Made by a program: the position numbers and the translations under genes. The notes under the pieces are model-generated. The model saw only the letters and a list, made by a program, of their open reading frames with translations, did not search any database and was not told where the DNA came from. Below are positions 5,139 through 22,349 of a stretch of DNA of 32,783 nt, piece by piece; position 1 is the stretch's first letter; each line of letters starts with the position of its first letter. The DNA comes from Alphaproteobacteria bacterium (GTDB taxonomy: Bacteria; Pseudomonadota; Alphaproteobacteria; Rhizobiales; Hyphomicrobiaceae), in the NCBI GenBank assembly GCA_022600345.1, contig JAHZKP010000084.1, positions 1 through 32,783 of the forward strand, given 5' to 3'.

Positions 5139-6499
5139 TAAACGCACTGGAATCGAAAAATCGCCATCGCCCAAACCCTTGGCGCGCCACCTTTGGTGGT
5201 AGTCATGGCCGTGCCGACCGACCTCGCTGAATTTTTCTCTCAAGCGTCACGCCGTTGCGTGTTCGCCACAGTCCACCCAACTTCCGCACTTCGCGACGGC
5301 CGCACCTGAACACATCTAACGTGAAGGATTCTGGAGACTTAGTCGATTCCGCGCCATCGCTCGACGGCCACAGACTCGTTTTTGGAAATCCCACTTCAAA
5401 GGGTTTTCATCGAGAGATAACAACTGTGCGACAAAGTGTAGAATTCACTCGTCCACCGGCCTGTTAAAAACCCCCGCCAACCTGTGGAAATTGGGCGTTT
5501 AAAAGCGTTGTTCGCGCACCGATCGACGTGTATGTCCAGCAAATTCAAGCCCCGGTTGACGCCCTGAAACACGGCACAACCAGACCTCTGGCCCACTTGC
5601 CCCTCCCGCCTTAACAAGCTATTAATCTCCCCCACTGCAGCGGTGGACAACATTGCTGCAGACGCGCCGGAAAAAATTTATCCAGGCGGCGAGATTTTGT
5701 AAGGCGTGTTCCCAGACCAGAGTTTTTGTTCCCAGTACTCCGGCTGGATTGTCGAAAAATTTGCGTGGCCACCGATGGTGGCCTGTAAGGGCTCGGAACT
5801 CGTTCCGTGTTCAACGGGAAGTTGCGCGTTGTTTGGGTAGGAGTAGTTCACTCCGTCTCCAAAGTTTAGGGCACAGCGCGTTTCGTCATGACTGTGTGGA
5901 GGGTAATGTGGGGTCTCGAAGAGCAATCTTCGTAGCGATCAGGACAACGTTTGAAATGAACGGTCTGATCGGTCCGAAACGGTTTGGTAAGAAGCAGAAT
6001 CAAGAACCGCCAACGGTTGGTTGCAGCGCCATTGCTGCGAATCACTGGCTAACTGATTTGCCCGCTGTGGGCAAGATGACGTCGCTGCAGAACCGCGGCC
6101 GTCCCGGGTCACCAGGCCATTCAATTGGTCGATCCTCTCAATGCACTCCCATGATGGGCACCCCGATTGAGGGGTTGGGAGCGCATCGATGTGATCCTCA
6201 GACGCCGATCTAAGTGACGCAATACAGCCGGATTGTAGCGACGAGATCCGGTCATAGAAGCGAGACCGAATAGTTGGCCGAATGAAGCCGGCAGGTTTCG
6301 CATAAGGGCAAGCCGGTAATAGGCAGCCGGCCCCGATTGTAAGCGCAGTCGTCCGCGCGCGTACCAAGTGCAATGCAAATGAGACTGGAGGCTCCAGCCG
6401 TGTCCGCTCCTCAATCTAAGAGGGGCGAACGCAAGAGCAGTGCCATGTCTCATCGCCAACAGAATTGAACATTACTTTTAGAGTGCGGGGACTAACATC
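5139..6499. other. Gene-free region upstream of dnaA, candidate oriC
   Basis: Roughly 1.36 kb with no convincing gene. A CtrA-type site is at 5611-5625. Weak DnaA-box-like 9-mers (two mismatches from TTATCCACA) occur at 5483-5491 (minus), 5642-5650 (minus), 5678-5686 (plus) and 6066-6074 (minus). TGTTCCCAG is repeated at 5707-5715 and 5727-5735, and AT-rich runs occur near 5671-5681. Hairpins are at 6146-6181 and a 13-nt palindrome CTGGAGGCTCCAG at 6385-6397. Position next to dnaA and the CtrA box make it a plausible origin, but the DnaA boxes are poor. Confidence 0.45.
5611..5625. promoter_or_regulatory. CtrA binding site, TTAA-N7-TTAA
   Basis: TTAACAAGCTATTAA matches exactly the full CtrA recognition motif known from Caulobacter and other alphaproteobacteria. 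It sits in the gene-free dnaA upstream region with weak DnaA-box-like sites on either side, which would allow cell-cycle control of initiation. Confidence 0.65.
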
Positions 6500-8119
6500 A
6501 TGCAGACGACATTGCAGGCCGAGGCAACGGCGCTGATTGCAGAACGCAACCTCAAGGCTGACACAGCGCCGGGCGCGGCGTCGACCAACCGAATGCCGGA
6601 AAAGAAGACGGCCGCAAGCAGTGCTGGCAACGCACTGGTGCCAGCCGGCGGCGGTGTCGGCGGCCAGAAAGTGCGAACCTTATTGCGCAAAAGGCTGGGC
6701 GAAGACGTCTATACGAGCTGGTTTAACGCCATCGAATTCGATGCCTTTGAAAACGGCGTTGTCGAGGTTTCCGTACCGGTAAAATTCCTCCGCAACTGGA
6801 TCCAGACACACTACATCGCCGACCTGCTTGAGTGCTGCCAGGCCGAATTCAAGGGCGCCGAAAAAGTCGAAGTCAAGCTGCGCCAGCCGCGCGCTGCCGC
6901 CCGGCCCGCACCAGCCCCGGTCGTTGCCGCAAAAGCCCCCGCGTCCCTGGAGCGCTCTGCGAATTGCGCACCGCGCGCCATGGGCCATGACGCAGTCGGT
7001 CCGATGACCGGCCTGCAGGCTTCGATTCCGCAACTGCCACAGCCAGGCCGCACCACAAAGGTCGGCGACTTCGAAGGGTCCCCGCTCGATCCGCGTTACA
7101 CCTTCGATACCTTCGTTGTCGGTTCTTCCAACCGCGTCGCCCATGCCGCAGCAACCAGGGTGGCAGAATCGCTCGGCTTCGAAAGCCCCGGCTTCAACCC
7201 ACTGTTCATTCACGCCCCCGTTGGTCTGGGCAAGTCGCACCTTTTGCAGGCCGCCGCCTGGGAAGTCACCCGCCGCCGCCCCGATGCCAACGTCCTTTAT
7301 CTGACCGCCGATGGCTTCCGCTATCGCTTCGTTGAAGCGCTGCGCAGCGAAGATCCACTGTCGTTCAAGGAGAAATTCCGCAAGGTCGACATTCTATTGA
7401 TCGACGACTTGGAATTCATGCACGGCGCCCAGACCGAAACCGAGTTCGATCATATCGTCAACGCACTTCTTGATGGCGGCCGCCAGTTGGTCGTCGCCTC
7501 CTCGCGCCCTCCCGCCCAGATCGAACGCCTCAACGAGCGCATGCGTTCGCGCCTCGCCCGCGGCCTGGTTACCGAATTGGGGGCATTCGACTACGAGCAC
7601 CGCGTCAGCGTCATCGAGATGCGTATCGCCGAAAAGCGCGTCATGGACCCTACCTTCAACCTCTCTCGCGAGGTTGTCGAACTGTTGGCCGACCGGCTCA
7701 AGGACAACGGCCGCGAATTGGAAGGCGCCGTCATTCGCCTGTTTGCCAATTGGCAGTATGTCCGCGCACCGATCACAGCCGATGTCGCCGAAACCGTCAT
7801 CCGAGATCTCGTCCAGGGGCTGGAGCCGCGCCGGATCAAGATCGAGGATATTTTGCGGGTCATCACGCGCCACTTCGGCGTGTCCAAGACAGACCTGCTG
7901 TCTCAGCGCCGCCACCGTTCGGTCGTCTGGCCCCGTCAGATCGGCATGTTCCTGGCAAAGCAGATGACCGCGCGTTCGCTGCCCGAAATCGGACGCCGCT
8001 TCGGTAACCGCGACCACACCACCGTCCTTCACGCCATCCGCAAGATTGACGGTGAGATCAACAAGAACCCACGCCTTCGCGATGAACTGGAAGATCTGAA
8101 AAAGCAGCTCAACAACTAA
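6500..8119 (+). CDS. dnaA: Chromosomal replication initiator protein DnaA
   Basis: AAA+ protein that binds DnaA boxes at the origin, melts DNA and loads the helicase. The 539-residue product has domain I (about 57-125), a Pro/Ala-rich linker (about 130-190), the ATPase with Walker A APVGLGKSH (239-247) and Walker B LLIDD (299-303), an arginine-rich segment (RMRSRLARG), and the C-terminal DNA-binding domain ending with the signature GRRFGNRDHTTVLHAI. It carries about 55 extra residues before domain I; ATG 6593 would remove 31 of them. The start at 6500 has a GGGGA upstream. A hairpin terminator follows, so dnaN is not simply its operon partner. Confidence 0.97.
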   Translation: MQTTLQAEATALIAERNLKADTAPGAASTNRMPEKKTAASSAGNALVPAGGGVGGQKVRTLLRKRLGEDVYTSWFNAIEFDAFENGVVEVSVPVKFLRNWIQTHYIADLLECCQAEFKGAEKVEVKLRQPRAAARPAPAPVVAAKAPASLERSANCAPRAMGHDAVGPMTGLQASIPQLPQPGRTTKVGDFEGSPLDPRYTFDTFVVGSSNRVAHAAATRVAESLGFESPGFNPLFIHAPVGLGKSHLLQAAAWEVTRRRPDANVLYLTADGFRYRFVEALRSEDPLSFKEKFRKVDILLIDDLEFMHGAQTETEFDHIVNALLDGGRQLVVASSRPPAQIERLNERMRSRLARGLVTELGAFDYEHRVSVIEMRIAEKRVMDPTFNLSREVVELLADRLKDNGRELEGAVIRLFANWQYVRAPITADVAETVIRDLVQGLEPRRIKIEDILRVITRHFGVSKTDLLSQRRHRSVVWPRQIGMFLAKQMTARSLPEIGRRFGNRDHTTVLHAIRKIDGEINKNPRLRDELEDLKKQLNN

Positions 8120-8157
8120 TCCCAATTTTCGCAGGCAGCGAAAACCAAACCGAATCC

Positions 8158-8184
8158 GGGCCGGCTTCCTGAGCCGGCCCGTTT
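8158..8184 (+). terminator. Terminator after dnaA
   Basis: GGGCCGGCT and AGCCGGCCC form a perfect 9-bp stem with a TCCTG loop (8158-8180), followed by GTTTC. It lies 38 nt after the dnaA stop. The T-run is short, so termination may be partial. Confidence 0.65.
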
Positions 8185-8224
8185 CGAACCTCCAGCGCCG
8201 CTAGGGCATGGCGCGGGAGGTTCG
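8185..8224. repeat. Long hairpin between dnaA and dnaN
   Basis: CGAACCTCC pairs with GGAGGTTCG, and inside it GCGCC pairs with GGCGC: a 14-bp stem with a single unpaired base on each side and a 10-nt loop. No T-run follows. It is separate from the terminator hairpin next to it. The rest of 8225-8545 holds no gene; the dnaN promoter should lie there but no clear hexamers are seen. Confidence 0.6.
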
Positions 8225-8545
8225 TGCGGGGGGCAGGGGTGGCGCTTGAACAAGGCGTCGCCCCTTGCTGCGTTGTGGGCAGCCTCATGCCTCACTATTT
8301 GCCTCATCAGTTTCCAAGTGTCGCCCGGAAGCCATAGTCTTACACGCAACGCCACTTGAAAAAGCCGGGCTGATCGGGTCAATTGGCGCTCCGCACGAAT
8401 CAGACCTGCGCGCCGATTCGCGGAATGAAGGTCGAAGCGCCGGCCGGAGGAGCGTTCAGCGCCGGGCGGTTTTTGCGTATCCTGGCGGCGATACAGCTTG
8501 AGTTTGAAGTCTAGAAATTGATGCCGGAACCGGCGAGGAGCGACT

Positions 8546-9673
8546 ATGCGGCTAGTGATTGAACGTGGGGAATTGCTACGCGCTCTGGGCCACGTCACCA
8601 GTGTAGTCGAGCGCCGCACGACGATCCCGGTTCTCTCCAACGTCCTCTTGCGGGCCTCAGGCGACACGCTGTCCTTCAAGGCCACCGACCTGGAGCGCGA
8701 AGTCGTCGAGGAAGTGCCAGCCTCCGTCGAGCAGCCCGGCTCGCTGACCGTGCCAGCACACTTGCTGCACGATATTGTCAGAAAGTTGCCCGATGGCGCC
8801 CAGGTTCAACTCGACCGCGACGCCGACCAGGAACGTTTGACCCTGTCGGCCGGTCATTCGCGATTTGCCCTCCAGACGTTGCCAGCCGAAGACTTCCCCG
8901 ACATCGCCGTTGGTGAACTGCCGCAAACCTTCGAGATCAGCGCCGGTGACCTCAAGCGCCTGATCGATAAGACGCGCTTTGCGATCTCGACGGAAGAAAC
9001 CCGCTACTACCTGAACGGCATCTACCTGCACACCGCTGGTACCGATGGCGAAGGCGACGCCCCGGTCCTGCGCGCTGTTGCCACCGACGGTCACCGCCTT
9101 GCCCAGGTCGATCTGCCGCTCCCCGATGGTGCCGACGGAATGTCGGGGGTCATTGTCCCGCGCAAGACCGTCCATGAGGTCCATCGCCTTCTGGAGGCTT
9201 CCGGCGGCTCGGTCACTGTTGGCGTGTCGGAAGCAAAAGTACGTTTCGGAATCGGCACCGTGACGCTCACCTCCAAGTTGATTGACGGAACCTTCCCCGA
9301 CTACGGCCGCGTTATCCCACAGGGCAACGACAAGGAGATGAAAGTCTCCAACGTCGAGTTCATGGGGGCTGTGGATCGCGTTTCAACGATTGCCTCCGAA
9401 CGCGGCCGCGCCGTCAAGCTGGCCGTCTCGACAAACCAACTGGTATTGTCGGTCAACAACCCCGAAGGCGGCAGCGCTACTGAGGAATTGGGCGTCGAGT
9501 ACGGCTCCGATGACCTGGAGATCGGATTTAACGCCCGATACCTTCTCGATATCGCCGGCCAGCTCGAAGGTGAAGATGCGACCTTCCTGCTATCCGATCC
9601 AGGTTCCCCCGCGATGGTTCGCGATTCTTCCGGCGACGGCGCACTCTACGTCGTCATGCCCATGCGCGTGTAA
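8546..9673 (+). CDS. dnaN: DNA polymerase III beta subunit (sliding clamp)
   Basis: 375 residues, the usual length of the ring-forming beta clamp that tethers the replicative polymerase. Three repeated clamp domains are recognisable: an N-terminal domain starting MRLVIERGELLRAL and including RTTIPVLSNVLL, a middle domain with ISTEETRYYLNGIYL and ATDGHRLA, and a C-terminal domain with GFNARYLLDI and ending VVMPMRV, which forms the hydrophobic peptide-binding pocket. GAGGAG lies at good distance before the ATG. recF begins 14 nt after the stop, so the two are likely cotranscribed. Confidence 0.97.
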   Translation: MRLVIERGELLRALGHVTSVVERRTTIPVLSNVLLRASGDTLSFKATDLEREVVEEVPASVEQPGSLTVPAHLLHDIVRKLPDGAQVQLDRDADQERLTLSAGHSRFALQTLPAEDFPDIAVGELPQTFEISAGDLKRLIDKTRFAISTEETRYYLNGIYLHTAGTDGEGDAPVLRAVATDGHRLAQVDLPLPDGADGMSGVIVPRKTVHEVHRLLEASGGSVTVGVSEAKVRFGIGTVTLTSKLIDGTFPDYGRVIPQGNDKEMKVSNVEFMGAVDRVSTIASERGRAVKLAVSTNQLVLSVNNPEGGSATEELGVEYGSDDLEIGFNARYLLDIAGQLEGEDATFLLSDPGSPAMVRDSSGDGALYVVMPMRV

Positions 9674-9687
9674 TCGGTTGCCCGGAA

Positions 9688-10908
9688 TTGACAGGTTCGC
9701 ACCCAGTAGATCCCCCGTCGTCTCCGCCGCCACAATCCCAAGCCGAGAGCGCGTTGCGCCTGTGGGTCGAGCGCCTCTCGCTCACTAGTTTCCGCAATTA
9801 TAAAAGCGCCGTCATCGCACCTGGCAATCAATCCGTCGTGCTCGTCGGGCCCAACGGTGCAGGCAAAACCAACCTCCTCGAAGCCGTCTCATTGATGGTC
9901 CCCGGCCAGGGCTTGCGCCGCGCATCCTATATCGACATGGCAAACATCGAAGCCGGCGGAAGCTGGGCGGTCGCCGCCAGGATCCACACCCGCAACGGTC
10001 CAGCCGACATCGGCACCGGCCAACAGCAAGCCCAGGCCGGCGCGCGTCGCGCTCCCACCGGCCGCATTGTTCGCATCGATGGCGAACAAAAGGGAGGTTC
10101 GGGCGTCCTTGCCGACTATCTGGAAGCCGTCTGGCTGACGCCCTCAATGGACGGCCTGTTTACAGGCCCGGCCGCCGAACGCCGACGCTTCCTTGATCGC
10201 ATGGTGTTGTGCTTCGATCCCGGTTTTCGCACGCTTGCCAGCCGTTTCGAGCGCGCCACTCAGGCCAGAAACCGCCTGCTTGCCGACGGCGTCCGTGATG
10301 CCGCCCAGTTAAAGGGCGTGGAATTGGTTATGGCTGAGGCAGGCGCAGCCGTTGCCGCCGCCCGCTATTCAACCGTTTCGCGCCTGTCCACCGTCATCGA
10401 GGCCCGCCGCACCCGAGCCCCCGACTCGCCATTTCCCTGGAGCCAGGTGCGCATCGAAGGGACGCTGGAAACCGAGCTGGCCGATGCTGCTGCCGTCGAC
10501 GTCGAAGATGCCTATGCCGAACGCCTTGCGTCCGCCCGCGAGCGGGACCGCGCCGCCGGCCGCACACTCGAAGGCCCCCACCGTTCCGACCTGATCGTGC
10601 ATCACGGCCCCAAACAGATGCCCGCCCGGCTCAGTTCAACCGGCGAGCAAAAGTCCCTCCTCATCGGCCTGGTCCTGGCCGAAGCCGAGTTGATCGCCAG
10701 ACGCCACGACGGCGCCGGCCCGCTCCTGCTGTTGGACGAAATTACAGCCCACCTCGATGAGGCCCGCCGCACCGCGCTATTCGAAGAGATCCTGCGTCTG
10801 GGCGGCCAGGCCTGGATGACCGGAACCGACCTGGAGGCGTTCTCCGCGCTGACCTCTCACGCAGCCTTTTTCAAGGTCGCGGGAGCCAATTTGACTCGAT
10901 TGCCTTGA
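9688..10908 (+). CDS. recF: DNA replication and repair protein RecF
   Basis: SMC-like ATPase that helps load RecA at single-strand gaps. The 406-residue product has Walker A GPNGAGKTN (about 54-62), the ABC signature region LSSTGEQKSL and Walker B LLLLDEITAHLD near the C-terminus, and the characteristic FRNYKSA near the N-terminus. The apparent start is TTG at 9688; no ATG or GTG exists before the conserved core. Another TTG at 9753 would shorten it by 21 residues, so the exact start is uncertain. It follows dnaN closely, the usual order. Confidence 0.95.
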   Translation: MTGSHPVDPPSSPPPQSQAESALRLWVERLSLTSFRNYKSAVIAPGNQSVVLVGPNGAGKTNLLEAVSLMVPGQGLRRASYIDMANIEAGGSWAVAARIHTRNGPADIGTGQQQAQAGARRAPTGRIVRIDGEQKGGSGVLADYLEAVWLTPSMDGLFTGPAAERRRFLDRMVLCFDPGFRTLASRFERATQARNRLLADGVRDAAQLKGVELVMAEAGAAVAAARYSTVSRLSTVIEARRTRAPDSPFPWSQVRIEGTLETELADAAAVDVEDAYAERLASARERDRAAGRTLEGPHRSDLIVHHGPKQMPARLSSTGEQKSLLIGLVLAEAELIARRHDGAGPLLLLDEITAHLDEARRTALFEEILRLGGQAWMTGTDLEAFSALTSHAAFFKVAGANLTRLP

Positions 10909-11187
10909 GGACTTGTCGCCCCGATCATCAAGAAGCTTCAAAATACCGCGCTGACAACATCGTAACGCGCTGTTTTTAATGGAATATCATCTGTTGATCA
11001 GTCGCACCCAAGTTGGGCTTTTTTCCCCCTTTTGGAGGGCTTGTATGCTAGATTGTCGGACGAACCGCGAAAAGCAACAGCCAAAACAACAACAACGACC
11101 AAAAGCGCGCTCCTCCCGCGTATTGCAGGCACGCCGTAGCCGCTTTTGCAAACTGACCTGCTCCCATCAAAGACGGAAAGACCCTAG
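10909..11187. promoter_or_regulatory. gyrB upstream region
   Basis: A 279-bp gap. A possible promoter is CTGACA (10951-10956) with TTTAAT (10975-10980), spacing 18. A short palindrome CCCAAGTTGGG at about 11007 followed by a T-run may terminate recF transcription. The short open frame here (10979-11191) is not convincing. Confidence 0.35.
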
Positions 11188-13632
<2,445 letters not shown>

Positions 13633-16774: not shown

Positions 16775-17510
16775 CACCCAACGATATTTCGGTTCCCTCC
16801 GTCCGGCAACCAGCCCCACACAACTTCAGGCCATGCCTATCGGTGTTAGCTCCTGCTAATTCTGCCAACGGCCTCGGAGGGAGGCTCGCCTTCAATGGCA
16901 AACGGCCGCCAGTCTGTTTAAACGTGCCATCCCCCGCAACGTCATTCCCGCCCCGGCTCGGAGGCCGGGATAAACTCCGGCGGGAACCTAAGCAAGCCGC
17001 TGTATTCACTGCCATTTCTAATGTTCTCCTAGGCGGAATGAATTGCCCGAGCGCGTAGCCTCAAGGATGGCTGGCAGAGGTTCCTTGATGCTTGCATGGG
17101 TCTCCACCTTCGTAGAGATGACGGAGGTGGGAGTGGTGATTTTGGGTGGCGCTTCGCGGCAGCAGTCACTGCGCGACGATAATTGCAGCATCGCCCGAGC
17201 AGTGAATTGTCGTAGCCCTTGTGATTCAGTCACCGAATCTTTGCACCTAGCGTCAACATGCGCTTGCGCAATGTTGCGCAATCAAAAAGCCCGGAGTTCT
17301 TGATCTGGCAACCAAAAATACAGTCCCAGGCAAGACGGCTGCAATCAATGGTGCTAACTTGCCGCGAGTTGTCGAAATTGGCTACGGGTTGCCGCGCGCC
17401 GAATGCCTTTTTTGGGGGGTGTTCCCCTCGGGACAGCATTCAACTCCAGGGGTCGCCATAACTGGGCTCAACAAGGTCAAACGTCCGAGCCCGAGGAAGG
17501 ATCACACGTC
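16775..17510. other. Gene-free intergenic region
   Basis: About 730 bp with no convincing gene. It contains GC-rich palindromes such as TTCCCGCC/GGCGGGAA (16945-16986) and CCACCTTCGT/ACGGAGGTGG (about 17105-17131); translations of the latter resemble intergenic palindromic repeats of alphaproteobacteria. A promoter for the DUF2147 gene presumably lies in 17400-17500 but is not identifiable. Confidence 0.4.
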
Positions 17511-18509
17511 ATGTCACTCACCATCCGGTTAACCCAAAGCGCCGCCCTGGCAACCGCACTTTTATGGACAGCATCCGCCCAGGCGGCTGATCCAAAAGGA
17601 ATTTGGTACGACCACAACGGCCGCGGTGCCGTCCAGATCAAGGATTGCAAGAGCGGCAAGGGCCTGTGCGGCTACGTCGTCCACGTCAAGAAAAAGAAGC
17701 ACGCCAAGCGCTGCGGCACGCAGATTCTGGGTAACGTCACATCCCGTGGCGGTGGCTGGATCTACTCGCCAAGCCGTGGCCGCAAATACACCGTCCGCAT
17801 CAAGCGCCTGAGCGATAGCAAGCTGCGCGTTGTCGGCAACGCTTCTTCACGCCTCTTCTCCAAGACCTTCACCTGGAAGAAGGCACCTGACGATCTCGAA
17901 CTGTGCGGTAAGTACGCAGTTGCCAAGAAGACCAGCGTAGACCGTGATGAGGATCGCGACACCCGCCGCACAAGCCGCCGTGACCGCGATGAGGATCGCG
18001 ACACCCGCCGTACAAGCCGCCGTGACCGTGATGAGGATCGCGACACCCGCCGTACAAGCCGCCGCGACCGCGATGAGGATCGTGACACCCGCCGCACAAG
18101 CCGCCGCGACCGCGATGAAGACCGTGACACCCGTCGCAGCCGCCGCCGTGACCGCGATGAGGATCGTGACAATGGCCGTCTGCCGCAGAGCGAAATCGAA
18201 GAACTTGAAGCAGCCGCTGCCCGCGAGCGTGATGAAGATGGTCGCCGCCGCTATGATGACGATCGCCGCGACAACGACCGCCGGTATGAGGACGAAGACG
18301 TCGCTGCAACGCCTGACGAAGAAGTCGAGGAAAACGAAGACACAGAAGGCGTTGGCAATGATCGCCCTGAAAACGAGGTCACCGAAGTCTTTGACCGCCT
18401 GATCGACAAGGCCAACGAGTACACAGGCGGTAACGGCAAGCGCCGCTGCAAGCTCCGCGTCCCATACGTTGATCGTGTCATCATGATCCCTTGCCGGGAC
18501 CGCGACTGA
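17511..18509 (+). CDS. Secreted DUF2147 protein with charged tandem repeats
   Basis: 332 residues. A signal peptide (1-25, ending AQA) is followed by a DUF2147 domain (about 27-135): GIWYDHNGRGAVQIKDC, LCGYVV, RCGTQILGN, GGGWIYSPSRGRKY and KTFTWKK. Residues 144-223 are five full copies and one partial copy of a 14-residue unit, DRDEDRDTRRTSRR, each 42 bp. After that comes an acidic low-complexity stretch and a Cys-containing C-terminal part with RCKLRVPYVDRVIMIPC. The start at 17511 has GAGGAAGG; the open frame extends to 17403 upstream without support. Function of DUF2147 is unknown. A terminator follows. Confidence 0.9.
   Translation: MSLTIRLTQSAALATALLWTASAQAADPKGIWYDHNGRGAVQIKDCKSGKGLCGYVVHVKKKKHAKRCGTQILGNVTSRGGGWIYSPSRGRKYTVRIKRLSDSKLRVVGNASSRLFSKTFTWKKAPDDLELCGKYAVAKKTSVDRDEDRDTRRTSRRDRDEDRDTRRTSRRDRDEDRDTRRTSRRDRDEDRDTRRTSRRDRDEDRDTRRSRRRDRDEDRDNGRLPQSEIEELEAAAARERDEDGRRRYDDDRRDNDRRYEDEDVAATPDEEVEENEDTEGVGNDRPENEVTEVFDRLIDKANEYTGGNGKRRCKLRVPYVDRVIMIPCRDRD
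17940..18179 (+). repeat. Tandem repeat, 42-bp unit, inside the DUF2147 gene
   Basis: Units begin at 17940, 17982, 18024, 18066 and 18108, with a partial unit from 18150. The first four encode the same 14 residues, and the fifth differs near its end. Third-position differences among units show they are not freshly duplicated. Copy number may vary by slippage. Confidence 0.9.
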
Positions 18510-18728: not shown

Positions 18729-19991
18729 ATGGATCGCTCGAAGGCGCATCGCTGGCTTTATTTCTTCAGCCTCGTGCTGGCCGCCGAGAGCATCTACATG
18801 CTCCCCTACCTGCGCAAAACCTTCCAGACGTCGATGGAGGAAGCCTTCGGGCTGGGCGCCGTTGACCTTGGCCTCCTGAACACGATGTTCGGCATCATCG
18901 CGCTGCTGGCCTACTTTCCCGGCGGCTGGCTGGCCGACCGAGTTTCAGCCCGCAAGCTTTTGAGCTTCTCGCTGTTCTCAACCGGCCTGGGCGGGCTCTA
19001 CATGGCGACAATCCCCTCGCACATGGGCCTGACGATCCTGCATGCGGTCTGGGGGTGTACGTCGGTGTTGACCTTCTGGGCAGCGTTGATCAAGGCGGTG
19101 CGCTGCTGGGGCGGGCAGGATCAACAGGGCACAGGTTTTGGACTGCTTGAAGCCGGCCGCGGCGTTATCGCCGCCGTGCTCGCCTCTCTTGCAACCCTGA
19201 CGTTTGCTTATGGCGGAACCACCACCGGCGGCCTCGTCTCAGTTATCCTGTTTTATTCGTCGGCCACGTTTCTGGCAGGTGCGCTCGTCTGGTTCCTGGT
19301 GCCCGACACGCTATACGAGAACCCCGCCAACGACGGACCGGCAACGGGCAATAGCTCTCAGACCCCGGCCGCCCACGATGCCGAACCGGCGCACTGGTCA
19401 TCGATCCTGAAAACGCGGCATAACTGGTATCTGGCCGCCATCATATTCAGCGCCTACACGCTGTTCCTGGGAACCTACGACTTCCCCGCCTACGCCGAGC
19501 GCGGCTTTGTGCAGACCAAGCTGTTTGGTGCCCAACTGGCAACATTCCGCGATTGGCTGCGCCCCATTGCGGCGATCGCCGCCGGCCTGATTGCCGACCG
19601 CTTTCACGCGACAAACGTCATCAGCATCGCTTTCGTGGCACTACTGGCGATCTATTTGTCGCTGGCCGTCCTGCCTGCCGGTCCGGCGCTATTGTGGTTG
19701 TTCTGGGGGCAGGTGGCGATTGCGGCAATCGCGGTGTTTGCCTTGCGCGCGGTCTACTTCGCCCTGTTGGAAGAATCCAACGTCCCGGTCTCGCAAACCG
19801 GCATGACCGTCGGCTTTATTTCCGTCATCGGCTACGCACCCGATTTGTTTTCTCACGCCTTGGCCGGATTATTCGTCGACGGCTTCGGCGTCAGTCTTGG
19901 CTATCGCTATTATTTCGGCTTCCTGACGGTGATCGCCGGCATCGGGCTTTTTGCCACCATTCAAATCATTCGCGAACGTCATAGAACCTAG
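18729..19991 (+). CDS. Major facilitator superfamily transporter
   Basis: 420 residues with about twelve hydrophobic segments. The MFS motif A is present between helices 2 and 3 as GGWLADRVSARKLL (about 66-79), and a related GLIADRFHATN appears in the second half. A charged cytoplasmic loop with NDGPATGNSSQ separates the halves. The substrate cannot be inferred; it resembles organic-anion MFS members. ATG 18729 follows GGGGGAG; the open frame upstream to 18693 is not needed. Its stop codon lies in the left end of repeat copy B. Confidence 0.88.
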   Translation: MDRSKAHRWLYFFSLVLAAESIYMLPYLRKTFQTSMEEAFGLGAVDLGLLNTMFGIIALLAYFPGGWLADRVSARKLLSFSLFSTGLGGLYMATIPSHMGLTILHAVWGCTSVLTFWAALIKAVRCWGGQDQQGTGFGLLEAGRGVIAAVLASLATLTFAYGGTTTGGLVSVILFYSSATFLAGALVWFLVPDTLYENPANDGPATGNSSQTPAAHDAEPAHWSSILKTRHNWYLAAIIFSAYTLFLGTYDFPAYAERGFVQTKLFGAQLATFRDWLRPIAAIAAGLIADRFHATNVISIAFVALLAIYLSLAVLPAGPALLWLFWGQVAIAAIAVFALRAVYFALLEESNVPVSQTGMTVGFISVIGYAPDLFSHALAGLFVDGFGVSLGYRYYFGFLTVIAGIGLFATIQIIRERHRT

Positions 19992-20156
19992 CAGCCAATT
20001 TCGTCTCGCATCCCTCTGGGACACCGCACTTTTTCGCCTCGGCGGCGTCGCGGCACTGGCACGATAGACCCACATCGCGCTGCGCGCCGCTTCTGGCCGA
20101 ATGCGAAAAAGTGACGGGTGTCGCGACCTCACTGAGTTCTTCGACAGCCTGCTAGA
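19988..20156. repeat. Small palindromic repeat, copy B (169 bp)
   Basis: The left end CTAGCAGC-AATTTCG and right end GCCTGCTAGA match copy A at 16711-16774. Between them is an insert with long inverted repeats, CACTTTTTCGC (20027-20037) and GCGAAAAAGTG (20103-20113), extended by GACACC/GGTGTC. The MFS stop codon TAG at 19989-19991 is part of the left end. The structure lies between two convergent genes, so it may also act as a bidirectional terminator. Confidence 0.75.
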
Positions 20157-20187
20157 TCGGCACGCGCCCATCACTGGGGAATGCAGC

Positions 20188-20616
20188 CTAACCGGCCTTG
20201 GCAACGCGAGGTGCCTGCGTACCTTTGACGATCTCGCCCAGCGTGTAGTTTTCGAGAACGCCCAGAAAAGCTTCGGTCGCTTCGAGCATCGCCGGCTTCA
20301 AGGCGCAGCGTGGTTCGAATACGCAAGCCGGGCCGGATTCAGCCAGGCAGTCGACGACGGCAAAGTCCCTTTCCAGTTGGCGCACGACCTGGCCGACGTT
20401 GATCTGATCGGCCGGCGTATCGAGCTTGACGCCACCGCCGCGCCCCCGCTGGGTCGCAACAAAGCCTAGGCCGGAAAGTTGCGCGACGATCTTCATGACA
20501 TGGCTCTTGGGCAATGACAGCCGTTCAGAAATGACGTCGATTGAAATTTCCTCATCGCTCTTGGCAAGCAATATGAGGATCCTCAAGGCAAAGTCGCTGG
20601 CACGATTGAGCCGCAA
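20188..20616 (-). CDS. nsrR: Rrf2-family repressor, NsrR-like
   Basis: 142 residues, a winged-helix DNA-binding protein with an iron-sulfur cluster. The N-terminal HTH is followed by LPKSHVMKIVAQLSGLGFV and RGRGGGVKL, typical of NsrR, and the cluster ligands are Cys90, Cys98 and Cys104. NsrR senses nitric oxide and represses NO-detoxification genes. RirA, an iron regulator, has the same Cys spacing, but the surrounding residues (SKSH-like motif, GQVVRQLERD, ENYTLGEIV) favour NsrR. TTG at 20616 is preceded by GGAG. It is divergent from a globin gene, which supports the NO role. Confidence 0.82.
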   Translation of the reverse strand: MRLNRASDFALRILILLAKSDEEISIDVISERLSLPKSHVMKIVAQLSGLGFVATQRGRGGGVKLDTPADQINVGQVVRQLERDFAVVDCLAESGPACVFEPRCALKPAMLEATEAFLGVLENYTLGEIVKGTQAPRVAKAG

Positions 20617-20681
20617 GTCAAAGCTCCACGAATTAGCATTGTACTTATTTGCTGACTTACAGGGGTTGCCTGCACCGTTAA

Positions 20682-20695
20682 ATGATGAATATCAT
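20682..20695. promoter_or_regulatory. Candidate NsrR operator
   Basis: ATGAT-GAAT-ATCAT is an inverted repeat in the nsrR/globin divergent promoter region, with the AT-rich character of Rrf2 operators. It is a candidate; the surrounding 20617-20800 holds no gene. Confidence 0.4.
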
Positions 20696-20800
20696 ATGAA
20701 TGAGATTGTCGCGACGACAAAGTTGTCATGTCCGGGTCCAGGCTGGACGGCGGCAAACGGCGAATTTCAGACGAAGCGCGAGAGGGCGCACAATAACATC

Positions 20801-21304
20801 ATGACCCATGAGGCCCGCAACGAACTCAGGCCGCGCCCGGCACGCCAGCCGGCCCCTGTGCACAGCTCGATTACCGAGGACCAGATCTCGGACCTCGTTG
20901 ACCGGTTTTATGAGCGCGTATGGGTAGATCCCCGCCTGGGGCCGATTTTCGCAGGGCGCATTGGCGACAATCGTGACGCACATTTGGCCAAGATGAAGCG
21001 GTTCTGGTCGTCGGTCCTTTTGCGAACGCGCACCTTCGAGGGCCGCCCGGTGCCAGCTCATGTCAAATTGACCGAGGTCCAATCTGAGGACTTTAGGATC
21101 TGGCTCGGACATTTCCACCCAATCGCCGCCGAAGTGTTTTCAACCGAAGCCGCCCCACTTGTCAGTGAGATGGCCGAGCGGATCGCCAAGAGCCTGTGGC
21201 TGGCGATGTTTTCAACCCCCACGCTCCTGGACCCCGAATGGGCCGCATCAACGACGGCCAATTCGCCATCAACTGGCTCGAAATCCCAATTGCCCAAACC
21301 TTGA
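20801..21304 (+). CDS. Group III truncated haemoglobin
   Basis: 167 residues from ATG 20801. The group III (P-type) globin pattern is present: FYERVWVDPRLGPIF near the N-terminus, HLAKMKRFW with the probable distal His61, GRPVPAH with the probable proximal His87, and FRIWLGHF with the group III Trp101. The family is linked to NO and peroxide handling. A low-complexity C-terminal extension of about 25 residues is unusual. ATG 20696 would add 35 residues and would start right at the palindrome, so the start is uncertain; GAGAGGG lies upstream of 20801. It precedes the MoaD-like gene by 18 nt. Confidence 0.85.
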   Translation: MTHEARNELRPRPARQPAPVHSSITEDQISDLVDRFYERVWVDPRLGPIFAGRIGDNRDAHLAKMKRFWSSVLLRTRTFEGRPVPAHVKLTEVQSEDFRIWLGHFHPIAAEVFSTEAAPLVSEMAERIAKSLWLAMFSTPTLLDPEWAASTTANSPSTGSKSQLPKP

Positions 21305-21322
21305 TTGAGGGAGATGAATCAA

Positions 21323-21646
21323 ATGACCGCAGGACTTGGCCACAATGCCCGCAACGCTACCGTCAGCGTCGAAGCCCGCCTTTTCAACTCGCTGCAAAAA
21401 TACGCCGGTCCCGAAGGCTGGCGCTCGACGAAAAGCTTTCCCGCCGGCGCTACGATCTATGATCTGGCGGCCGAATTCGGACTGCCGCCCAAAGAGATCT
21501 TTCTCGTGATGAAAAATGGTCGCGATGTCACTGCCGGCCTAGTCGGGGCCCCGGCAAACCTGAATGCCGCCCTCGAAGATGGAGATGTGATCGCATTCTC
21601 AGGCCCGGTGCCATACAGTTATGGCCTGGGAGCACCGGTCGTCTGA
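21323..21646 (+). CDS. MoaD/ThiS-like ubiquitin-fold protein
   Basis: 107 residues from ATG 21323, which lies 9 nt after GAGGGAG; the ATG at 21314 is too close to it. The ThiS/MoaD-like pattern is visible: VEARLFNSLQKYA, a helix with TIYDLAAEFGLPPKEIFLVMKNG, and the segment LEDGDVIAFSGPVPY. In true MoaD and ThiS the chain ends with Gly-Gly for sulfur transfer; here it ends GLGAPVV, so it may not be activated that way. It is transcribed with the globin and probably with the cytochrome P460 gene. Partner unknown. Confidence 0.75.
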   Translation: MTAGLGHNARNATVSVEARLFNSLQKYAGPEGWRSTKSFPAGATIYDLAAEFGLPPKEIFLVMKNGRDVTAGLVGAPANLNAALEDGDVIAFSGPVPYSYGLGAPVV

Positions 21647-21707
21647 TAACAACAAGAAGCCAAAAGCAAAAAACGAAAACGACAAAGAAACCAACAAGGA
21701 GGAAACA

Positions 21708-22214
21708 ATGAAGACCAAAATAATTGCCGCAGCCCTAGCCATGATGATGTTTGCCCCAGCTCAAGCCGAAGAGCCGCGCATCGACTTCCCGGCTGACTAC
21801 AAGTCCTACAAGAACTACCTCAGCCTCGACCGCATCGGCGATAACAAGACCCAGATAATCAGGCTGTTCGCCAACAAGGTTGCCCAAGCCGGCCCGGGTG
21901 AAAAGGGCGCACTGCCCGATGGTTCCGTCCTGGTCGGTGAGATCTACAAGGCCGAAGTCGACGAAGACGGTGAAGCCAAGACCAGCGTCCTCGGCCGGCG
22001 GATTCGCAAGAAACTCGCGGCCATTGCCGTCATGGAAAAGCGCAAGGGCTGGGGTGAAAAATTCGACGCTGAACACAAGAACGGCGACTGGGACTTCGCC
22101 ATCTTCAGTCCGGATGGCAAGCGACTGGTGAAAAAAGACCTCAATTCATGCCGCGCATGCCACGCTCCTTTGACGGAAACAGATCACGTCTGGTCTTATG
22201 AGCATCTGCGCTGA
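21708..22214 (+). CDS. Cytochrome P460 family haem protein
   Basis: 168 residues. A signal peptide (about 1-20, ending AQA) directs it to the periplasm. The mature part has the P460 family pattern YKSYKNYLSLDRIGDNK, IIRLFANKVAQAG, ALPDGSVLVGEIYK, and a single c-type haem site CRACH at 148-152. P460 proteins oxidise hydroxylamine or bind NO (cytochrome c'-beta); whether the haem-crosslinking lysine is present cannot be decided by eye. AAGGAGG at good spacing precedes ATG 21708. It follows the MoaD-like gene by 61 nt and ends with a strong terminator. Confidence 0.85.
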   Translation: MKTKIIAAALAMMMFAPAQAEEPRIDFPADYKSYKNYLSLDRIGDNKTQIIRLFANKVAQAGPGEKGALPDGSVLVGEIYKAEVDEDGEAKTSVLGRRIRKKLAAIAVMEKRKGWGEKFDAEHKNGDWDFAIFSPDGKRLVKKDLNSCRACHAPLTETDHVWSYEHLR

Positions 22215-22238
22215 GCCTGAAGCATTGAAAATTCGGAT

Positions 22239-22276
22239 GGCCGGGGCATGCGATCAGCGCGTCCCGGCCGTTTTTT
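22239..22276 (+). terminator. Terminator after the P460 gene
   Basis: GGCCGGG (22239-22245) pairs with CCCGGCC (22263-22269), followed by GTTTTTT. It closes the globin/MoaD/P460 transcript. Confidence 0.85.
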
Positions 22277-22349
22277 GTTGTGCCGACGCCAGCGCCTTGG
22301 CGGTCAAGTGAAGCACCATTCTTGAAGCCGCCCCGCAGATCAGCTACGT

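Follow-up and report, generated by a model that had tools for sequence, protein, structure and literature searches.

A predicted NsrR operon carrying a MoaD-like protein family probably tied to molybdenum- and tungsten-pterin enzymes

The 32,783-nt stretch of DNA analysed here (assembly GCA_022600345.1, contig JAHZKP010000084.1; hereafter the window, to which all coordinates refer) carries a gene for an NsrR-like repressor and, divergent from it, closely spaced genes for a group III truncated haemoglobin, a MoaD/ThiS-like protein and a secreted haem protein. The source genome is designated G000, and the window gene lies on its contig C119. With modest confidence, we favour the view that these genes make up an anaerobic NsrR operon derepressed by nitric oxide (NO), in which the MoaD-like protein represents an uncharacterized family probably tied to molybdenum (Mo)- or tungsten (W)-pterin enzymes; its part in the NO response and its whole biochemical role are what we infer. 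A place for such a protein among NO-handling genes was the unexpected element of an original prediction made from the letters of the window, and comparative regulation supports it. In another genus, g37, the globin and MoaD-like genes lie far apart and yet carry the same predicted NsrR switch, and for this reason the MoaD-like protein probably belongs to the NO response. The features of the locus are as follows.

20188..20616, minus strand: NsrR-like Rrf2-family repressor (142 aa, TTG start; Pfam and structure matches)
20666..20695, plus strand: sigma-70-like promoter (weak consensus match only, 9/12; second hexamer inside the operator)
20682..20704, no strand assigned: predicted NsrR-type operator ATGATGAATATCATATGAATGAG (top window score by consensus and by matrix)
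20801..21304, plus strand: group III truncated haemoglobin (167 aa; PF01152; closest solved match Ctb, 2ig3)
21314..21646, plus strand: MoaD/ThiS-like beta-grasp protein (N-terminal GHN motif, invariant tail SGPVPYSxGxG..V, no terminal Gly-Gly)
21708..22214, plus strand: secreted c-haem protein of P460 fold, cytochrome c'-beta-like (PF16694; CRACH motif; Gly77 replaces the cross-linking Lys)
22235..22279, plus strand: intrinsic terminator (hairpin and T run at the operon end, fold -29.7 kcal/mol)

Predicted regulation of the MoaD-like gene in other genomes

NsrR-type sites were sought with a matrix trained on six globin loci from other genomes (L014, L135, L154, L155, L158 and L160), each contributing its best site beside the NsrR-like gene; the window was excluded from training. 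In six g37 genomes, sites of 15.6-22.5 bits were found upstream of the unlinked MoaD-like genes, each the best of ~6,000-12,000 positions in its own locus. The same loci contain 43 other gene-upstream regions, 42 of which scored at most 8.7 bits; the 43rd belongs to a divergent gene that shares one of the sites. Six of the seven g37 globins examined also have an NsrR-type site, of 14.6-21.3 bits (eight globins were found, and that of G214 was left out), and five genomes (G033, G075, G141, G192 and G234) have sites at both the unlinked globin gene and the MoaD-like gene. The g37 genomes encode an NsrR-like repressor, in which Asp8 and the three cysteines discussed below are kept in L184 and L187 and the three cysteines in the others, which were compared without the N-terminus. 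The MoaD-like genes of this group adjoin lolD-like and, where the contig reaches far enough, dnaE-like genes (both named by sequence reading).

A further type of control is suggested by FNR/FixK-type boxes. A perfect TTGAYNNNNRTCAA box lies 57-99 nt upstream of the MoaD-like gene in nine of the 17 non-window loci, and five more have a box with one mismatch; no box was seen in L039, and contig ends cut L045 and L051 short (L220, whose gene is itself cut by a contig end, was excluded from these counts). For comparison, the 557 kb of loci contain 13 perfect boxes in all, eight of which stand at MoaD-like genes, two of these eight being double-counted in overlapping loci. The best one-mismatch box near the MoaD-like gene of the window, at 21068, was rejected as a candidate: it lies inside the globin gene, ~230 nt upstream of the MoaD-like gene and outside the 56-99 nt range. 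In four loci (L046, L047, L048 and L050), a one-mismatch FNR-type box stands just 5' of the NsrR-type site upstream of the MoaD-like gene, an arrangement that would suit a promoter activated by FNR and repressed by NsrR.

The distribution of the two types of site across the loci suggests broad anaerobic control of the MoaD-like gene, and NsrR control in two lineages. In the family tree, the window gene falls outside the g37 clade; the backbone is not settled and the support is below the strict mark, so that two independent recruitments of the MoaD-like gene by NsrR are no more than likely.

The predicted window operon, its operator and its haem proteins

Four genes of the predicted kinds (Rrf2/NsrR-like, globin, MoaD-like and P460-fold) are present at the positions first proposed, and the idea that three of them run together also fits the layout. 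The globin and MoaD-like genes are 9 nt apart, and 61 nt separate the MoaD-like and haem-protein genes; a Shine-Dalgarno-like run precedes each of the two downstream starts, and beyond the haem-protein gene, the third in the row, comes a hairpin with a T run. From this spacing we infer that the three genes are co-transcribed as one unit. The hairpin at 22235-22279 was absent from the output of a rule-based terminator scan, and sigma-70-like promoters numbered 2 against 0.9 expected in shuffles. The next gene, for an MbfA iron exporter, starts downstream of the terminator.

The repressor belongs to the Rrf2 family (PF02082, E 6e-32), and its best solved match is the Streptomyces NsrR, ScNsrR (5n07, E 2.8e-19). 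Its Asp8, Cys90, Cys98 and Cys104 align with four positions of 5n07, an Asp8 and three cysteines that we take to be the ligands of the [4Fe-4S] cluster. These matches bear out the proposed NsrR identity; what counts against the label is a score of 95.7 bits with the NCBIfam NsrR equivalog PRK11014, far below its cut-off of 182.

The palindrome noted earlier at 20682-20695 was confirmed and proved to be the left portion of a longer predicted NsrR-type site, 20682-20704. When all window positions were scored against an E. coli-type NsrR consensus, which has 20 specified positions, this site was the unique top with 13 matches, and by the matrix it reached 14.3 bits, the runner-up in the window having 5.4. 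An FNR-type reading of the palindrome, with 2 mismatches, was dropped because 37 matches in the window are equally good. Elsewhere, a match above 12 bits is present at some point within the ~2.6-3.4 kb covered in 19 of 29 globin loci (L057-L085), a few of these being the training promoters themselves. A site above 10 bits lies upstream of the P460-type gene in four of 16 loci (L128, 24.9 bits; L132, 16.6; L135, 15.9; L130, 11.6) and is missing from the other 12, the gene starts being approximate in L126, L134, L136, L137 and L138. L128 comes from G200, a genome of the same genus as that of the window.

The globin matches PF01152 exactly at the cut-off (E 4e-4). Its best solved match is Ctb (2ig3, E 6.6e-14), the second best reaching 9e-4, so that the proposed group III assignment, rather than group I or II, is upheld. 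His87 is presumably the proximal histidine and Tyr37 the B10-type tyrosine. An NsrR-like gene adjoins the globin in five of 20 other globin loci (L014, L154, L155, L158 and L160; the central part of each was considered); in L135, it stands one gene away, and a P460-type gene lies ~2.5 kb past the globin. A small ferredoxin gene comes immediately after a group III-like globin in L161 and one gene further along in L016, and the ferredoxin is a possible electron donor to the globin.

The haem protein is a member of the P460 family (PF16694, E 4e-20) with an N-terminus that, judged by eye, resembles a signal peptide. In a structure search with a profile of 11 sequences, the closest entry was 7s5o (1.2e-41), followed by the M. 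capsulatus cytochrome c'-beta 6hih and its variants (3e-8 to 5e-8) and then by the P460 entries (6hiu, 9e-5; N. europaea P460 2je2, 0.09). A passage of a 2025 review describes 7s5o as the N. europaea cytochrome c'-beta, in which Met79 replaces the cross-linking Lys and Ala109 the distal carboxylate (PMC11928373). Gly77 of the window protein (P0004) aligns with the Met of 7s5o at the cross-link position, where relatives have Gly and also Ala or Met, and the stretch KLAAIAVMEKR, which spans the distal carboxylate position, is identical to that of 7s5o. The P460 6amg has Lys at the matching position (GTVIVKEL), as judged by indirect alignment through a relative. The protein thus has a P460 fold and a CXXCH motif without the cross-link Lys, as a cytochrome c'-beta does, and has neither the Lys nor the distal carboxylate of a catalytic P460. 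It is best described as cytochrome c'-beta-like and is expected to bind NO; oxidation of hydroxylamine is unlikely, because Gly77 stands in for the cross-link Lys and no distal carboxylate is present.

The P460 label and the handling of hydroxylamine put forward in the original prediction are not supported by these comparisons, and the label is corrected here to that of a c'-beta type expected to bind NO. One might still suppose that the unit clears both NO and hydroxylamine, the latter through a catalytic cytochrome P460, as the PF16694 match would allow. We give this hardly any credence in view of Gly77 and of a distal-carboxylate stretch shared with a cytochrome that has Ala at the critical position.

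Among the 16 P460-type loci, an Rrf2 gene is divergent from the P460-type gene in two (L129 and L130, of a single genus). The second P460-type gene of G000 (L139, contig C42) lies near predicted sigma-factor and anti-sigma-like genes, named by sequence reading, and the anti-sigma-like cluster is also found near P460-type genes in two other genomes (L138 and L140).

The MoaD-like family and its probable tie to AOR enzymes

The description of the small protein as MoaD-like holds for the fold family and fails for the C-terminus of a sulphur carrier. The window protein matches PF02597 (ThiS) at E 0.006, below the cut-off; a profile of its family matches MoaD (1vjk) at 9e-4, and at E<=0.1, 13 of 15 members match Ub-Mut7C and 10 of 15 match ThiS. 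The family therefore appears weakly but consistently related to MoaD, ThiS and Ub-Mut7C. A single-sequence structure prediction was too poor to use (predicted local distance difference test score, pLDDT, 49.5). The C-terminal tail is invariant in all 15 members and is their longest conserved stretch, and the GHN motif is nearly invariant. A C-terminal Gly-Gly occurs in none of the 15, and since it is missing, the predicted protein as translated cannot be thiocarboxylated or act as a sulphur donor. G000 has Gly-Gly-ended MoaD/ThiS-type proteins as well, encoded on contigs C128, C144, C140 and C49.

Of 249 genomes sampled from the order, 15 have a clear orthologue of the MoaD-like gene, and a larger draw of the order gave 19 of 397 at E 1e-10. 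A sample of 398 genomes of the phylum returned strong matches only in G000 and G022, both of this order, and seven further matches that were weak (<=36.6 bits); on this basis the family looks confined to the order. Within the window's own taxonomic family, G000 is the sole holder among 21 genomes listed. The conserved four-gene linkage that the original prediction would have led one to look for did not emerge. In none of the 14 other loci surveyed is a globin, P460 or NsrR-like gene near the MoaD-like gene (flanks of up to ~1.5 kb, shorter at contig ends), and no called open reading frame (ORF) of the larger MoaD-like loci was flagged as any of the three. The cluster was therefore rejected as a conserved unit, and pairwise links between its members do recur. 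In G002 (L042, 3-8979), the MoaD-like gene lies beside a Crp/Fnr-type regulator and a nirS-like cluster (cytochrome cd1-like and haem d1-type biosynthesis genes), and its other side is occupied by xanthine-dehydrogenase-like genes (all named by sequence reading).

The tie to pterin enzymes is proposed from the AOR family (PF01314, tungsten aldehyde oxidoreductases). All 15 genomes with the MoaD-like gene encode an AOR-family enzyme, compared with 42 of 249 overall (Fisher 2e-13 by genome and 2e-7 by genus, values that ignore phylogeny), and G000 is the sole AOR genome among 10 listed of its family. In three genomes of f27 (G027, G165 and G678), no more than ~6 kb separates the MoaD-like gene from AOR genes, and in G027 and G165, MoeA-like genes, identified by sequence reading, stand between them. 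A profile recheck for missed MoaD-like genes in 23 of the 27 AOR-only genomes gave only weak matches (<=31 bits). The copper nitrite reductase marker NirK (TIGR02376 above cut-off), checked in 80 of the 249 genomes, is present in one of the 15 MoaD-like genomes (plus one partial match below the cut-off), two of the 27 AOR-only genomes and six of 38 others; because NirK does not track the MoaD-like gene, the association is unlikely to stem simply from life as a Cu-type denitrifier.

The upstream regions of AOR operons had neither an FNR nor an NsrR box in nine of the nine scanned (11 AOR loci were fetched; the aorA start is approximate in L152). For this reason, the AOR enzyme and the MoaD-like gene are predicted not to be co-regulated by factors of these types. 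In G000, the aorABC-like genes are on contig C67 (L142), with no MoaD gene called beside them, and a Gly-Gly-type aorD-like gene with a small companion lies at the end of contig C140 (L049). The window gene, on C119, is thus not located in an aor operon, as an AorD would be.

Competing explanations and known systems

NO poisons iron-sulphur and metal-pterin enzymes, and we know of no good description of how Mo/W enzymes are kept up under NO in anaerobic bacteria. In the scheme that we favour, [4Fe-4S] NsrR bound at 20682-20704 would, without NO, repress its own gene together with the globin, MoaD-like and c'-beta genes, and NO would destroy the cluster and open the operon, as is usual for the NsrR family. 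By analogy with their families, the group III globin would then handle NO in the cytoplasm and the c'-beta-like protein would bind NO in the periplasm. The MoaD-like protein may assist Mo/W-pterin enzymes, AOR being the likeliest candidate, as an accessory induced under anaerobic conditions and by NO. Its contribution would be to bind a pterin enzyme or a maturation partner, a role favoured over sulphur donation because the protein, as translated, cannot donate sulphur. A more specific proposal, which we advance only tentatively, is that this ubiquitin-fold family carries no sulphur and acts as an NO-induced anaerobic partner of a W/Mo pterin enzyme, binding through its SGPVPYSYGYG-type tail and protecting or re-routing cofactor assembly under NO. 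If this were true, the NsrR response would have three arms: NO capture in the cytoplasm, NO capture in the periplasm and cofactor guarding.

Several observations weigh against the favoured scheme. NsrR sites at the MoaD-like gene are found in two lineages only, the window and g37, whose related genomes are counted as a single case; no such site is found in eight other MoaD-like loci (best 5.8 bits), and L214, L217 and L219 have no NsrR match above 12 bits. The window operator is degenerate, with 13 of 20 consensus positions against 14-18 in the six training promoters. Only in the window is the MoaD-like gene close to globin and P460 genes; a globin relative is present in 10 of the 15 genomes with the gene and in 131 of all 249, so that the gene does not track the globin, and P460-type relatives, present in eight of 15 against 32 of 249, come in six of the eight cases from the related g37 genomes. 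The tie to AOR is weakened by the neglect of phylogeny in its Fisher values, by the 27 AOR genomes without the MoaD-like gene and by the AOR operons devoid of either box.

The absence of linkage in 14 of 14 other loci and the failure to track the globin could be read to mean that the MoaD-like gene is a passenger, placed between the globin and c'-beta genes by rearrangement and without a role in the NO response; its isolated presence in G000 among the 21 listed genomes of the family likewise implies that it was gained by G000 or lost around it. This is decidedly unlikely, given that the unlinked g37 orthologues have NsrR-type sites of their own, as do the globins in five of those genomes, and that in the window the spacing is tight and the terminator comes only after the third gene. 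It is rather unlikely, in our estimate, that the MoaD-like protein acts directly in NO or redox defence, for example in the repair or shielding of iron-sulphur or haem proteins, the AOR correlation then reflecting an anaerobic life style. The FNR- and NsrR-type control of the gene and the lack of these boxes at AOR operons speak for such a role; the denitrification marker NirK speaks against it, occurring in 1 of 15 MoaD-like genomes when AOR occurs in 15 of 15.

The protein might also be a genuine sulphur carrier synthesized in precursor form, from which a protease trims the tail (e.g. at ...YGYG|APVV) and exposes a C-terminal Gly, providing a molybdopterin supply that is anaerobic and NO-resistant. 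Some ubiquitin-like carriers are indeed made as precursors, the profile matches are to beta-grasp MoaD/ThiS proteins, and Gly residues are conserved near the C-terminus. We nevertheless regard this as unlikely: the Gly-Gly is absent, the tail is the longest conserved stretch, which would be odd for a discarded piece, and G000 already has its four Gly-Gly-ended MoaD/ThiS-type proteins. For the accessory role in Mo/W-pterin enzyme upkeep, the gene offers a direct experimental handle: it is predicted to be under NsrR, its product has a fixed tail that lacks Gly-Gly, its tie to AOR is strict in the sample, and regulation of the oxygen/NO type recurs.

Two further features of the window lie upstream of the operon. 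An ORF at 17403-18509 contains tandem RDRDEDRDTRRTSR-type repeats and has a secreted-looking product. At 19991-20157 lies a dispersed repeat of ~166 bp with ends reading CTAGCAGGCTGTTGAA, which looks like an element of the miniature inverted-repeat transposable type; five full-length copies that were compared are 91-93% identical to the window copy, and its end is matched at no fewer than 39 other places in G000, many of them close to contig ends.

In the open-licence literature searched, no on-topic account of NsrR together with MoaD was found, and none that joins P460, NsrR, a globin and an operon, and for group III truncated haemoglobin with NsrR a single review came up; as far as that literature shows, the combination and this MoaD-like family are new. 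The globin is of the same subgroup as Campylobacter Ctb (2ig3), which is linked to the NO response and is regulated by NssR, whereas the neighbour of the window globin is NsrR. NsrR regulons include hmp, hcp-hcr, ytfE, norB and others, and the window operon resembles them in its [4Fe-4S] Rrf2 repressor, palindromic operator and NO-handling targets; it differs in the targets themselves, since here NsrR would control a group III globin together with a c'-beta-like cytochrome and a MoaD-like protein. Hmp and NorB are named as NsrR targets in a passage of one article (PMC12774639), and a passage of a 2005 survey reports NsrR as absent from alphaproteobacterial genomes except that of R. capsulatus E1F1 (PMC1274295). 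With the cytochromes c'-beta of N. europaea (NeCP-beta, 7s5o) and M. capsulatus (McCP-beta, 6hih), the haem protein shares the P460 fold, the c-haem and the lack of both Lys cross-link and distal carboxylate; it has Gly at the cross-link position instead of Met79 or Phe61, and its type is found with NsrR-type sites.

Both halves of the proposed role have precedent. In the Aromatoleum aromaticum AOR operon, AorD and AorE are described as MoaD-like putative cofactor maturation factors (PMC6365974), and they thus resemble the window protein as MoaD-like proteins tied to a tungsten AOR. They differ in that several genomes, G000 included (C140), encode a Gly-Gly-ended AOR-type MoaD in a gene of its own, and that the window family has a conserved non-Gly-Gly tail and FNR/NsrR-type sites of its own. 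Neisseria gonorrhoeae mobA, in a table entry marked NsrR and anaerobically induced (PMC3032703), similarly places a pterin-cofactor gene under NsrR; mobA makes molybdopterin guanine dinucleotide (MGD), whereas the gene in the window encodes a MoaD-like protein that lacks Gly-Gly and shares its operon with haem-protein genes.

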